64,000 nt of DNA from the NCBI GenBank assembly GCA_913060895.1, contig CAJXSN010000002.1, forward strand, positions 62,001 through 126,000, read 5' to 3'. Under the pieces are notes generated by a model. That model was not told where the DNA came from. It saw nothing but the letters and a program-made list of their open reading frames with translations, and ran no database searches. Source of the stretch: an uncultured Sphingomonadaceae bacterium. GTDB taxonomy: Bacteria; Pseudomonadota; Alphaproteobacteria; Sphingomonadales; Sphingomonadaceae. Below are positions 1-61,987 of this stretch, piece after piece. A program made the position numbers and the translations under genes. Within the stretch, counting starts at the first letter, position 1. Each line of letters starts with the position of its first letter.

Positions 1-938
1 TCAAGCGGTAGATTTCCGGCATCGTCCGTAGCCTGCATGATTTCGCCCGGCTTATAATCGTAGAACCGCATCAACCAGTCGGACTGATACAAACGGTGCT
101 CACGGATTAACGGGGGACGCTTTAATGGTAAGATGGCGCTAGCATTGGGGATTGGGCTGAAGGCGCTGTAATATACCCGCCGCAGCCGGAAATTATCATA
201 TAGGCGACTGGCTTTGCCTACGATATCTGCGTCGCTCGCAGTATCCGCACCGATAATCATCTGTGTCGATTGGCCCGCTGGCGCAAAGCGCGGTGCAAAT
301 TTGAACCGCTTCCGCGAATCCTTTGCCTCCACGATACTCGATTTCATGCCGCCCATCGCACTTTCGATCTGGCGCGCGTCCTTATCAGGCGCCAGACGAG
401 TCAATCCGCTATCGGTCGGCAGTTCGACATTAATCGAAACCCGATCCGCAAGCAGTCCCGCTTGATATACCAGACCGGGATCAGCCTCGGGAATTGTCTT
501 GAGATGGATGTAACCACGAAAATCGTGGTCTTCACGAAGGATACGAGCCGTTTCGACCAACTGCTCCATAGTGAAGTCGGAACTTTTGAGGATACCGGAG
601 GATAGGAACAGCCCTTCGATATAATTACGCCGGTAAAAATTCAGCGTTAGATCCGCAACTTCCTGCGGAGTAAAACGCGCGCGACGAACATTGCTGCTCT
701 TGCGGTTGATACAATAATGACAATCGAAAATGCAGTGATTGGTCATCAGCAACTTCAATAGTGATATGCACCGACCGTCGGGCGCATAAGCGTGACAGAT
801 GCCCATCCCTTCAGTCGAACCTATGCCTTTGCCCCCCATCGAATTTTTCTTCGCCGTACCGGACGACGCACAGGAGGCATCGTATTTCGCTGCATCAGCG
901 AGAATTTCGAGTTTTTGCAAGGTGCTCTGAACTGGCAT
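1..938 (-). CDS. Putative DNA modification/repair radical SAM protein (partial, C-terminus beyond left edge)
   Basis: Hand translation of the minus strand from ATG at 938: MPVQSTLQKLEILADAAKYDASCASSGTAKKNSMGGKGIGSTEGMGICHAYAPDGRCISLLKLLMTNHCIFDCHYCINRKSSNVRRARFTPQEV... Radical SAM CxxxCxxC (CIFDCHYC). Open through base 1, so absent from the ORF track. Confidence 0.85.
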   Translation of the reverse strand, partial: MPVQSTLQKLEILADAAKYDASCASSGTAKKNSMGGKGIGSTEGMGICHAYAPDGRCISLLKLLMTNHCIFDCHYCINRKSSNVRRARFTPQEVADLTLNFYRRNYIEGLFLSSGILKSSDFTMEQLVETARILREDHDFRGYIHLKTIPEADPGLVYQAGLLADRVSINVELPTDSGLTRLAPDKDARQIESAMGGMKSSIVEAKDSRKRFKFAPRFAPAGQSTQMIIGADTASDADIVGKASRLYDNFRLRRVYYSAFSPIPNASAILPLKRPPLIREHRLYQSDWLMRFYDYKPGEIMQATDDAGNLPL

Positions 939-940
939 TC

Positions 941-955
941 GTTCTATATATGTTC
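941..955 (-). promoter_or_regulatory. Candidate LexA/SOS box GTTC-N7-GTTC
   Basis: Exact GTTC TATATAT GTTC at 941-955, immediately upstream of the radical SAM gene start at 938; matches the alphaproteobacterial LexA consensus. Confidence 0.65.
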
Positions 956-1329
956 TTTAGCGATGCCGCGCTACACATCATTTGACACCTCTGCCGCGGT
1001 TCTACCGACATCGTTTGAGACATGGCGTTACACGTCTTCCAGTATCGAATGACGATGCCAGCACAGTTACAGTCTATTGATACCGTATATCGATCGCGGC
1101 CCGGTTGCAGATATGTTCTTAGATACATAAACTCCAAACTGCCCTAAAGCCTTGGAATATGATAATATTATGTATTTGCCGCAATGAGACCAGTTAACCT
1201 TTATCTTGTTGACGAGGTATCCGCTGAGACCCGCCCTTACGCTGTTAGAATTTGTCGGAGCGGCAGTCGGAACAGGAACAAATGCCTTCGAGCGGCCGTT
1301 GCATGATCATATAAAGGAGACCGACAACC

Positions 1330-1812
1330 ATGCAGTATGATTCAGGCAAAGCAGACGAATTAAAAACCGATTTCTGGAATGCTCTGGCAGATTCGCCGTT
1401 CGTTTTTCTCGAACGCAAGTCAGCCCCGACTGATGCCGTGGTGATGACTGCGCAACTCGACAAAGACGCCAACAGCGAAATCTGGTTCTTCACTACTCGC
1501 GACCATTCGCTTGCCAATATGGGCCCTGCCGTCGCAACATTTGCGGGTAAGGACCATAGTGTTTTCGCGCGGATCGAGGGCGAATTGACAGAGGAAAAAA
1601 GCAGCGAGCGGCTCGAAAAACAGTGGAGCAAAATCGTCGAATCCTGGTTCCCGAAAGGCAAGGACGATCCGAACCTGATAATGTTGCGTATGGATCTGGG
1701 CAAAGCCGAGATCTGGAACAGTGACCTTGGAGTGATCACAACGGCAAAGATGCTGTTTGGTAAGGATGTACGTAGTGATGCCAGTGAGCAGCACGTCGAA
1801 ACCACCCTCTAG
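1330..1812 (+). CDS. Pyridoxamine 5'-phosphate oxidase family / general stress protein-like flavoprotein
   Basis: 160 aa; ...EIWFFTTRDHSLANMGPAVATFAGKDHSVFARIEGELTEE... typical of the split-barrel FMN-binding family. Confidence 0.75.
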   Translation: MQYDSGKADELKTDFWNALADSPFVFLERKSAPTDAVVMTAQLDKDANSEIWFFTTRDHSLANMGPAVATFAGKDHSVFARIEGELTEEKSSERLEKQWSKIVESWFPKGKDDPNLIMLRMDLGKAEIWNSDLGVITTAKMLFGKDVRSDASEQHVETTL

Positions 1813-12250: not shown

Positions 12251-13624
12251 CTATGGGCCGAATTCAAAGGGCGTCGCTGCGCGCGAAACTGTATCAAACG
12301 CCAAATTTGCGCCTCTGGGCGGCAGGGAACGCTGGCGGCAATCAGGGCGCCTGCACCGCTCGCACCCCAGACCGATCGGCTGGGCCTGTTCACGTAGCAA
12401 GGAGAGCCCTCGGGCCTGAGCCAACGGCTGCGCCAGACGCGCCTCTAGGCCCAGAACAATAGAGAATTTCCCATCCCCGCCGGTGGCATCAACAGCATGC
12501 GACAACGTAACCCATTCGCGGCCCGCATCGCTGTCTCCGTCAACCCTGACAGTCTGCGCGATCCACCTGTCCGGCCGCTCGAACGCTTCGTGAACTTGCC
12601 ACAATGGGCATGAATCTTCAGTCTCAAGCAGCAGTGTACCGCTGGCTCCGGCAAAGCGTTTGGAGAATTGTCCTGCCCGATCCACTCTCGCCATAAAGAA
12701 GGGCAGCCCGCGCTGCCCCACGCGCTGGAGCGTGGTAAGACGATGCGACAATTGCTCAGCACTTACGTTAAAACGGCGCTCTAGAACCGGTAGATCATAT
12801 CCAGTTGCATCGCAGGCACGCAGGAAGCGCGAATAAGGCATGATAAGGGCAGCAGCAAAGTAGCCAGTTAAATGGCGCTCGAACAGTTTTCGTGCACCCT
12901 CATCCTCGAATTGCGCCCCGGCCGCCAACTGCGCGAACGAGTCCCCATGTTCCAATAATCCCAATTGAAGGGCCAGCTGGAAGTTACGAGAGGCAGGAGA
13001 TAGCATTTCCGCCAATTGTACTTGCCTAGCATGCAGATCGAGCCGTCGCAGTGTTTGAGGCATGACCTCCCGGGGCAGCACGCGGATAGCCAACTGATGC
13101 CGTTCACGGAGGCGTTCTGTCAGAGCAGCACCCATATCGGCACGCGACAGACGTAATTCGTCAGCTAACTCTTCCGCCGCATTATCAAGGTCTGCAAAAT
13201 GATTGCGCCAACGCTCGATCTCCCGGCGCGAGGCTACCAGGGGATCGTATTGTCGGTCTATGCCATTACTCGCCTTGTCGAATAGGCGCACAAAGGCAGC
13301 GGCGGCCTGCGGAGCTGCAGCAAGAAATTCCGCCGCCTCCTCCCTGTCGATTCCCAAATCGGCAAACCGTTCATCCCCCAACCTGCGTGACAGTCCATCC
13401 AGTCCGCCAATCGCTTCGTCTGCTTTCAATCTCCGAGGGTCGAGATCGAACTGCTCGACCAGCTGGACTACCACCCGAGCTGAAACGGGGCGCTTATTGC
13501 GCTCGATCAGATTGAGATAGCTGGCAGATATACCGAGGCGCGCAGACATAGCTGCCTGCGTAAGGCCTTCACGTTTACGGAGGCGGCGCAGGGCCGGCCC
13601 GGCCAGAAGGGAAGATTCACTCAT
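12251..13624 (-). CDS. XRE-family transcriptional regulator, short-chain fatty acyl (ScfR/RamB-like) family
   Basis: MSESSLLAGPALRRLRKREGLTQAAMSARLGISASYLNLIERNKRPVS HTH plus IrrE/DUF955- and DUF2083-like C-terminus; divergent from isocitrate lyase. Confidence 0.82.
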   Translation of the reverse strand: MSESSLLAGPALRRLRKREGLTQAAMSARLGISASYLNLIERNKRPVSARVVVQLVEQFDLDPRRLKADEAIGGLDGLSRRLGDERFADLGIDREEAAEFLAAAPQAAAAFVRLFDKASNGIDRQYDPLVASRREIERWRNHFADLDNAAEELADELRLSRADMGAALTERLRERHQLAIRVLPREVMPQTLRRLDLHARQVQLAEMLSPASRNFQLALQLGLLEHGDSFAQLAAGAQFEDEGARKLFERHLTGYFAAALIMPYSRFLRACDATGYDLPVLERRFNVSAEQLSHRLTTLQRVGQRGLPFFMARVDRAGQFSKRFAGASGTLLLETEDSCPLWQVHEAFERPDRWIAQTVRVDGDSDAGREWVTLSHAVDATGGDGKFSIVLGLEARLAQPLAQARGLSLLREQAQPIGLGCERCRRPDCRQRSLPPRGANLAFDTVSRAATPFEFGP

Positions 13625-59034: not shown

Positions 59035-61227
59035 TTATGAGTTGGCATAATCGTATTCATATTCCTGATAGTAATACTGATAGCCTTCGCCCTTCGCGTC
59101 GAATTTCGTCATCACCAAACCAAGCAGTTGTTTCGCATGATTATTCAAGCGGGCAATCATATCTCTGGTCTGGGCAGGCCGCCATTCACCGGCTTCTAGC
59201 GCAAACAGAGTCGCATCAACATGAGATGACAGGATCAATGCGTCGGACAGGCCAAGGACCGGTGGGCCGTCAATAAGAATATGATCGTATTTTTCACCGC
59301 ACACGTCCAGAAGGTTCTTAAATGCAACGGATGAAAGCAGATCAACAGGGTTGGGTGGAATGTGCCCGGACGGCAAGAAATCGATTGCAAGCGGCTCCTG
59401 AACAGTACGGATGGCATCTGCAATAACCGTCTGGCCAGCCAGCACCTCGGCCAGACCATTTTCGTTATCTAGACCAAGCAGTTTATGCATATTGGGTCGC
59501 CGCATATCTGCATCCACCATCAGAACGCGGTTGCCGCGCCGGACCAGATTTTTTGCGATAGCAAAGCTGGTCGTCGACTTGCCTTCGCCGGCACGGCCAC
59601 TGGTTGTAAACAACGATTTGGGCACCCCGCCCGTACCTGAAAGTGCGAGGATCGACGTCAAAGTCTGGAAAGATTCTGATATGTTCGAAAGATTCTCTTC
59701 CAACGCTTGCTCGATATCCACGCCCTTCGGACGCGGAATCGTTGCCAGTAGGGGAACCGACAGATGCCGGCGGACATCGTCCGGTGTACGAATGCGGTTG
59801 AAAATCTGCTCGCGGAGCAGAGTTGCCAGTGCCGCCAGAACAAGTCCGAGGACGAGAGCGATCATCATGTTACGCGTCGGTTGTGGAGCAAACGGAATGC
59901 GCGGACGCTCTGCCTTGTCAACAACGGTGATATTGTTGCCAGTCAAACCGGCGGACGCGGTAAGTTCACGGTAGCGCTGGAGTAACCCGTCGTACAAAGC
60001 ACGGTTGGTCGCTACCTCGCGGTTAAGAATACTGTATTCTACATTGCGGGACTGCTCGCCTTGCTGTTGTCCGGTAAGGCCCTGCAGTGCTGAGCCCAAT
60101 TCACGCTCCCTGCCTAAGGTTGCCTCATAATTGCGGCGGATCGAATCCTTGATGTTTGCAGAAATCGAAGAAATTTCACGCTCGATCTGGCCTAGCTCCG
60201 CTTCGGCTTCCTGAACTTCCGGCGAGTTGCTGATATAGCGCTGCTTAACTTCAGCTAGCTGTGCTCGCAGCTCGGCTCGCCGGCGAAGCAGATTGGAAAC
60301 AGCAGAGTTCTGATAGACTGCAGGAAGACTTAAAGCAGGGCTATTCTGCGCAGAGCGCCACGATTGCTCTGCCTGAATGCGCGCGCTACGTGCCTGGACG
60401 AGTTCTTGGTTAGTCTGACTGATAGTATCGTTGGTCAAAGACCCGCTCGGGTCTCCATCCGCATTGCTTCCCGTCGAGACAATCCCTGTATTGCGCGCAT
60501 ATGTGGCGAGATTAGCTTCGGAATCTTCTAGCCGTTCTCGCGCTTCGGCCAGTTGTTCTGCGACGAATTGCCGAGCGTAGGCGGTAACATTGAAACGGCG
60601 GGTCAGGCTGTCTTCAATATAATTTTCAGTGTAACTATTTGTTACCCTCGAGGCCAAATTGGCATCGGGGCTGGCAAAGGTAATTGTGATGATCCTCGAT
60701 TCGGGAACTTTTGTAACCGTGCGGTTTTGAAGCAGTTGTCCGACAACTGCTCGCTTGCGTGCGTCTGCAGCTTCACGGCCAGACAGGTCTTCCGAGACGG
60801 GGTTTGCATTCATCGCAACCAAAAAATCGTCATTGTTCAGCAGACCGAGATCTTCCGCGACTGCCTCTGCTATAGCACGACTTTCGATGATTTCGATTTG
60901 AGTGCGAAGAAACTCATCGCTGCCCTGGGCAGGAATCTCTGCCTGAACATCCTCGACATCCAGAACATTGGACTGACGGGAATCGACTTCCAACGTGGAT
61001 TCAGCGCGGAACATCGGCACTGAGAGTGCAGTTAAAACAGCAGCGGCCAACATTGTGCCAGTAAGGACGCCAAGGATGATCCACTTGTTGCGCATCACCA
61101 CAGCGCGCAGTTCGACAAAATCAATCAGTTGACCGTCATCGCTTCTGGCAGAGTCATTACCAATCATGCGGGTAGGCTCGACAAGAGGCACCTGATCCGG
61201 TTGAGCAAGAGGACCCGAAGGATTCAT
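59035..61227 (-). CDS. Polysaccharide biosynthesis tyrosine autokinase / chain-length determinant (Wzc-like)
   Basis: Wzz domain, GNVR-type PxxP, Walker motifs FTTSGRAGEGKSTTSFAIAKNLVRRGNRVLMVDADMRRPNMHKLLG, Tyr-rich tail GEGYQYYYQEYEYDYANS. Confidence 0.95.
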   Translation of the reverse strand: MNPSGPLAQPDQVPLVEPTRMIGNDSARSDDGQLIDFVELRAVVMRNKWIILGVLTGTMLAAAVLTALSVPMFRAESTLEVDSRQSNVLDVEDVQAEIPAQGSDEFLRTQIEIIESRAIAEAVAEDLGLLNNDDFLVAMNANPVSEDLSGREAADARKRAVVGQLLQNRTVTKVPESRIITITFASPDANLASRVTNSYTENYIEDSLTRRFNVTAYARQFVAEQLAEARERLEDSEANLATYARNTGIVSTGSNADGDPSGSLTNDTISQTNQELVQARSARIQAEQSWRSAQNSPALSLPAVYQNSAVSNLLRRRAELRAQLAEVKQRYISNSPEVQEAEAELGQIEREISSISANIKDSIRRNYEATLGRERELGSALQGLTGQQQGEQSRNVEYSILNREVATNRALYDGLLQRYRELTASAGLTGNNITVVDKAERPRIPFAPQPTRNMMIALVLGLVLAALATLLREQIFNRIRTPDDVRRHLSVPLLATIPRPKGVDIEQALEENLSNISESFQTLTSILALSGTGGVPKSLFTTSGRAGEGKSTTSFAIAKNLVRRGNRVLMVDADMRRPNMHKLLGLDNENGLAEVLAGQTVIADAIRTVQEPLAIDFLPSGHIPPNPVDLLSSVAFKNLLDVCGEKYDHILIDGPPVLGLSDALILSSHVDATLFALEAGEWRPAQTRDMIARLNNHAKQLLGLVMTKFDAKGEGYQYYYQEYEYDYANS

Positions 61228-61276
61228 AAATCTGATTTCCAGCTAAATAATAAAAATTACAATGACCTCAACGCCA

Positions 61277-61987
61277 TTAAAGCGCTCTGAACACTGCGGC
61301 TGCCAATGGCGAGGCACGAAGCAGCTCCAGATAATCCCGCCGTGCATTATCGAGATGCACCACAACCACATCACCAGAGATCAACTGTGGATCGTCCTGC
61401 ATACCGCGTTCGATTGCAGTCAAATTGAACAACGCTCCAAACCGTTGCCCTTCGATTGTGCGGAAAACCACCACGTCATCGCGGCTTGCAAGTTCATTAG
61501 TTCCCCGTGCCCGTGCGATCGCTCCAAGCAATGTCATATCCTTGTCGGCAGAGAAAACACCCGAAGAATTCACCGCACCCTCGACCACAATACGGCGCGT
61601 CGCTGCTTCCAGCAGCATGACGGTAACATCGGGATTTCTCAAGTAGACCTGGCCGAGACCGCTCTCTATCTGCCGGGCCAATTCGAAAACCGTGTCTCCA
61701 TTAGCGTCAAGTCGGCCGAGCAGGGGAAAAGCAATCGCTCCAGTGGAATCCAGCGTTATCTCGTCAAAAGACAAATCCGGCTCCCGAAATGTGCGAATGC
61801 TGATCTTGTCATTCGGACCGAGAGGATATGTTGAAGCATCGATGTCCTTGAGAGGAGCCTCGAATTGGGCAGCAACCTCGCCAATGGGACGGGACTGCTG
61901 CTCGATTGTGCCGCTACACCCTGTCAGAAGCAGAAGCAAACCACTCAGCATCAATGTGTTAATCCGCAAAACTCTCACTCCGAACAC
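61277..61987 (-). CDS. Polysaccharide export outer-membrane lipoprotein (Wza-like)
   Basis: Lipobox LLLLTGC; YPLGPNDKISIRTFREPDLSFDEITLDSTGAIAFPLLGRLDANGDTVFELARQIESGL (Poly_export + SLBB). Confidence 0.9.
   Translation of the reverse strand: MFGVRVLRINTLMLSGLLLLLTGCSGTIEQQSRPIGEVAAQFEAPLKDIDASTYPLGPNDKISIRTFREPDLSFDEITLDSTGAIAFPLLGRLDANGDTVFELARQIESGLGQVYLRNPDVTVMLLEAATRRIVVEGAVNSSGVFSADKDMTLLGAIARARGTNELASRDDVVVFRTIEGQRFGALFNLTAIERGMQDDPQLISGDVVVVHLDNARRDYLELLRASPLAAAVFRAL

Follow-up and report, generated by a model that had tools for sequence, protein, structure and literature searches.

The closest described relative of the locus reported here is a two-gene operon, COG1573-COG4277, which is considered a putative UDG-based base excision system and which, according to PMC8565304, is SOS regulated in Verrucomicrobia and Alphaproteobacteria; for these two groups, that paper cites earlier works, including one on the Caulobacter SOS regulon. 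SOS control of the same operon has been predicted in Bacteroidetes (PMC8565304). Separately, DUF4130 has been linked to SplB-like radical SAM proteins and to uracil glycosylases (PMC3765255), and His109 of M. smegmatis UdgX makes a covalent link to the abasic site (PMC10776899). The functions of two of the NCBIfam families concerned, TIGR03916 and TIGR03915, are uncharacterised. We take the first of these to be COG4277, on the strength of family knowledge and the gene pairing.

To place a new example alongside these systems, we analysed a TIGR03916 gene from an uncultured Sphingomonadaceae bacterium, the beginning of which lies in a 64,000-nucleotide stretch of DNA (the window). As in the COG1573-COG4277 operon, a UDG-family protein and a radical SAM (rSAM) protein are paired under a LexA operator, which is of the same GTTC-N7-GTTC type as that of the operon in Alphaproteobacteria. 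Unlike in that operon, UdgX supplies the UDG part here and is joined to DUF4130 in one protein, and the operator overlaps a promoter predicted to be leaderless, an arrangement that was not found in the literature searched. The regulation of this locus is confirmed as another instance of the already reported SOS control of COG1573-COG4277, and the leaderless operator/promoter geometry, together with the optional nature of UdgX, is possibly new to the literature. The features of the locus are collected in Table 1.

Table 1. Features of the rSAM locus, with positions given in the window.
Feature	Position	Strand	Remarks
rSAM gene, 5' part (TIGR03916, rSAM_link_UDG)	1..938	-	runs on past base 1
CX3CX2C [4Fe-4S]/SAM motif codons (Cys69, Cys73, Cys76)	711..734	-	invariant in 54 aligned orthologs
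Predicted transcription start, A of ATG	938..938	-	7 nt downstream of the predicted -10
LexA/SOS box GAACATATATAGAAC	941..955	-	exact match; kept in 79/80 + 41/42 alphaproteobacterial orthologs
Predicted -10 TATATA, inside the LexA box	945..950	-	geometry common to 47 aligned upstream regions
Predicted -35-like gTAGCGC (ortholog consensus CTnGgC)	968..974	-	17 nt before the predicted -10
Partner marker (gene outside the window)	1..1	-	DUF4130-UdgX fusion, G000:C2 about 60115-61572; separated from the rSAM stop by 121 nt

The rSAM protein and its DUF4130-UdgX partner

The complete rSAM gene (L009:9695-10939(-)) encodes a protein of 414 aa, residues 8-408 of which match TIGR03916, 'putative DNA modification/repair radical SAM protein', over the full model, with 574.4 bits against a curated cut-off of 343.5. 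This family assignment rests on NCBIfam, since the Pfam radical SAM and HhH matches fall below their gathering scores, as is the case for HHH_3 at residues 330-359 (E=1.2e-4), a possible C-terminal helix-hairpin-helix region. A phmmer search of the protein against the PDB gave no sequence match at 1e-3. The protein is modelled as a radical SAM barrel (mean pLDDT 87) that comes closest to the HydE, biotin synthase and RlmN types and has no close relative of solved structure. Its best 50 fold matches are HydE, biotin synthase, RlmN and viperin-type barrels, and no spore photoproduct lyase or SplB is named among these 50. Neither the PDB sequence search nor these fold matches point to SplB as the closest protein. 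SplB-type radical SAM DNA lyases (COG1533) and PA0069-family rSAM proteins resemble the present protein in being radical SAM proteins under SOS control, but they belong to families that differ from TIGR03916. Besides the cysteines of the CX3CX2C motif, Cys23, Cys48 and Cys57 are invariant in the 54 sequences, making a second Fe-S cluster possible.

A phage origin of the family was also considered and rejected, because the matches named 'Acinetobacter phage MD-2021a' lie beside glyS/glyQ and resemble a chromosomal contig. The record L191 (CAKLQH020000003.1), which bears this name, contains glyS, glyQ and the rSAM/DUF4130 pair. The remaining phage-collection matches of the family are unannotated gut fragments.

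Directly downstream of the rSAM gene, and on the same strand, is a DUF4130-UdgX fusion of 485 aa (L009:8116-9573(-)). An earlier note, made from the letters of the window alone, had placed the rSAM protein in a poorly characterised family suspected to act in DNA repair and had suggested that the gene be followed beyond base 1 in search of a UdgX-like partner; the family name agrees with the first statement, and the fusion supplies the partner. It scores 223.7 bits with TIGR03915 (SAM_7_link_chp, DUF4130) and 313.1 bits, against a cut-off of 189.95, with TIGR03914 (UdgX), and its Pfam domains are PF13566 and PF03167. All three NCBIfam models, TIGR03916 included, are matched far above cut-off, and no difference from these families was found. 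The UdgX domain shares about 45% identity with M. smegmatis UdgX (6ail) across some 190 aa and has its GEQPGD motif; the GKRRIH loop can be aligned with the KRRIH loop that carries the cross-linking His, and the modelled domain matches UdgX structures with a target TM of about 0.88. Unlike the M. smegmatis protein, the host protein adds an N-terminal DUF4130 domain.

Of 123 ortholog loci, 121 have the partner beside the rSAM gene. Among 39 aligned partners, 12 end after DUF4130, without a UDG domain, and no UDG gene is adjacent to rSAM + DUF4130 in Bacteroides, Spirosoma or Pusillibacter. Therefore, it is rSAM + DUF4130 that forms the constant pair, with UdgX as an optional addition. These observations weigh on the interpretation offered in the Bacteroidetes LexA paper, namely that the operon serves UDG-based base excision directed at uracil, the rSAM protein being accessory. 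The name given to the operon in PMC8565304, a putative UDG-based BER system, expresses this interpretation, and a UdgX domain with a cross-linking KRRIH loop is what it would call for; however, both the partners that stop after DUF4130 and the genera without an adjacent UDG gene speak against it, and we judge it unlikely as an account of what the operon is for.

The LexA box and its conservation

On the plus strand, positions 941-955 read GTTCTATATATGTTC (GTTC-N7-GTTC), and two bases (939-940) separate this box from the ATG of the rSAM gene at 938-936 (-). The bare pattern proves nothing and was rejected as evidence for function, as it occurs at about chance level: the window holds two matches where 1.76 are expected, and the whole genome holds 84 sites as compared to 66 for a reversed control pattern. 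What lifts the 941-955 box above chance is its position, its spacer and its conservation. All seven spacer letters are A or T, and with a spacer matrix built from other alphaproteobacterial orthologs the spacer ranks 4 among the 84 genomic sites (background P about 0.0008). The second match in the window, at 12581-12595 (-), sits within a 505-aa ORF resembling an XRE-family regulator and is probably a chance occurrence. A divergent neighbour at 1330-1812 (+), about 375 nt from the box, encodes a pyridoxamine-5'-phosphate-oxidase-like protein (PF16242), and no sign was seen that this gene shares the SOS box.

The earlier note had claimed an exact match to the alphaproteobacterial LexA consensus at this site, which holds, and had proposed a search for the box upstream of orthologs. 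Upstream of the nearest orthologs, 80 genes from Sphingomonadales, the box is exact in 79 cases and has a single mismatch in the remaining one; the letter-reversed control pattern has no match in the 23.9 kb of upstream DNA of these 80. For 42 further alphaproteobacterial loci, taken from a family search and representing several families, the exact box was found before 41, as compared to 2 matches of the control pattern and 0.25 in shuffled sequence, and one locus (L113, from a 1.5 Mb genome) has no recognisable box. Altogether, 120 of 122 alphaproteobacterial orthologs keep the box in the same place while their flanks diverge, and in several orders its distance from the ATG is quite different or its orientation is reversed.

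Outside of the Alphaproteobacteria the same gene is preceded by other operators. The LexA motif of beta- and gammaproteobacteria is CTGT-N8-ACAG, and this motif is present 8-49 nt upstream of the rSAM gene in exact form in 16 of 20 beta/gammaproteobacterial genomes and with one mismatch in another; the other three loci have no recognisable box. A Caballeronia plasmid copy (L190) also has CTGT-N8-ACAG, which brings the count to 17 of 21 exact and one near. In a Bacillota plasmid copy the Bacillota-type motif, GAAC-N4-GTTC, occurs twice, 156-185 nt upstream. None of the motifs tested was found at the Bacteroides, Spirosoma and Acetoanaerobium plasmid copies, nor at two Acinetobacter copies; Acinetobacter is a genus that is not known to have LexA. 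Without selection for SOS control, such a swap of operator type before one and the same gene would be difficult to account for.

Promoter geometry and the start codon

The gap between box and ATG is exactly 2 nt in about 43 of the 80 sphingomonad orthologs. We compiled an upstream profile from 47 aligned regions, which were picked by their exact box and about four of which may have another true start. Across these regions the AT block inside the box forms a -10 (TATAAG/TATATA), the eight letters of the GAAC half-sites are invariant and the flanks show little conservation. Counted from the box, positions -19 to -14 hold a further conserved element, CTnGgC (T 91% and G 91% at its two key columns), which, when read as TTGgcg, lies 17 nt from the -10. 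In the window copy the -10 is present and the T and G of the -35 are kept, yet the -35 is overall a weak match. A leaderless mRNA, predicted from the -35/-10 spacing together with the 2-nt gap, is the simplest reading of this arrangement and the one that we favour. Leaderlessness is not universal: in about half of the orthologs the ATG is further from the box, some of these having a leader, and part of the Erythrobacter/Porphyrobacter relatives have a longer one. In the upstream regions of the latter (L058-L083) a short leader that contains the inverted repeat GGAACAC..gaaag..GTGTTCC separates the box from the ATG.

Since a good -10 lies within the block and a conserved -35 stands 17 nt upstream of it, the AT-rich block could be imagined to be kept mainly as a core promoter, with the GAAC repeats incidental and no LexA regulation. 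However, the eight GAAC letters are more constrained in the box-picked regions than any -35 position, and the exact box precedes 79 of 80 orthologs, even if the 47-region set was picked by the box. Moreover, the variable distance and orientation in several orders, and the use of a different LexA motif in other classes, would not be expected of a mere core promoter, so that we regard this explanation as very improbable.

The tight spacing had led the earlier note to suggest either a leaderless mRNA or a start further downstream, and of these two we favour the first. In the second, the box would be real and translation would begin at the downstream MGGKGIG (Met34) of a leadered mRNA, which would fit with the 2-nt spacing being too tight to accommodate a Shine-Dalgarno sequence. 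Such a start would cut away the region of residues 9-27 (KLEILADAAKYDASCASSG), with positions that are invariant in 54 orthologs, and TIGR03916 covers the N-terminus from model position 3. We excluded it because it removes this invariant N-terminus, including Cys23, and give the corresponding explanation hardly any credence. Finally, that the box is a coincidence, GTTC-N7-GTTC being short and its counts in the window and the genome near expectation, is already refuted by the conservation test, in which the box persists in Alphaproteobacteria among diverging flanks and gives way in beta- and gammaproteobacteria to a group-specific LexA box.

The host SOS regulon and the proposed mechanism

The host genome encodes LexA (TIGR00498, 169.6 bits), with two overlapping boxes 38-49 nt upstream of lexA, and RecA (TIGR02012, 571.8 bits), with the box GTTCCACACTTGTTC upstream of recA. 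Further high-ranking boxes are found at imuA, a dinB-like polymerase gene, uvrD, radA and a PA0069-family rSAM gene, and uvrA also has a box; UvrD and UvrA were identified from their own sequence alone. Conservation under two different LexA motifs, together with this LexA/SOS regulon, lends strong support to SOS control of the rSAM gene, as had been proposed from the window alone. On the sequence evidence, the 941-955 motif is almost certainly a genuine SOS switch before an rSAM/uracil-glycosylase repair operon.

In undamaged cells, LexA on 941-955 would cover the -10 and block transcription. RecA filaments would trigger self-cleavage of LexA and thereby free the promoter, whereupon RNA polymerase would produce a leaderless mRNA whose first base is the A of the ATG or lies no more than about one base from it. 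The operon products would constitute a damage-induced DNA base repair or modification pair. Taken as a whole, this combination of a LexA-blocked -10, a damage-released leaderless operon and a repair/modification pair is very probably the right explanation of the locus. As for the chemistry, the rSAM protein may process a DNA lesion together with DUF4130 by 5'-deoxyadenosyl radical chemistry, and UdgX may excise uracil and then, by way of the His in its KRRIH loop, remain attached to the abasic site. It is with modest confidence that we assign the repair or preparation of the lesion by radical chemistry to rSAM + DUF4130 and the handling of accompanying uracil or abasic sites to UdgX.

A broader proposal, which we put forward tentatively and would not yet call probable, is that in many sphingomonads the operator, an element of about 17 bp, holds a leaderless -10, and that rSAM + DUF4130 form a core radical repair pair to which UdgX is an optional add-on. 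If the operator is indeed of this kind, a single element of about 17 bp joins repression to the mRNA 5' end; if the core pair is as proposed, the extra invariant Cys of the rSAM protein possibly hold a second Fe-S cluster and UdgX is not the defining activity. The retention of LexA control even where the LexA motif differs places the rSAM family firmly in the DNA-damage response and argues for rSAM + DUF4130 being a repair system worth biochemical work, for which mitomycin C offers a simple condition for finding a phenotype. It also suggests that UdgX, which has mostly been studied alone, can work with a radical enzyme.

Other genes of the host genome with LexA boxes include the second rSAM gene (PA0069 family, L011:1830-2936), which has an AT-rich box at its start. 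Outside the window, a 76-aa ORF (MMITIALFALFATALCASVLSLLDT...; L014:2558-2896, G000:C2:252557-252895) with a likely membrane helix has a LexA box 108 nt upstream, and GAAC-N7-GAAC also stands 110-112 nt upstream of each of the four homologs that a set of 20 relatives yielded; this ORF is a candidate for a small SOS-induced membrane protein, perhaps a SidA-like division inhibitor. The box GTTCTATTTATGTTC lies at the start of a 352-aa protein (L010:1430-2497, G000:C1:163929-164996) whose C-terminal domain is of the winged-helix (MarR-like) kind, and a box is located just upstream in five of its six closest homologs too. Lastly, a tyrosine integrase gene (L023:1257-2489) has a box-like GAACAAAATAAGAAC 31 nt upstream and possibly belongs to an SOS-controlled mobile element.
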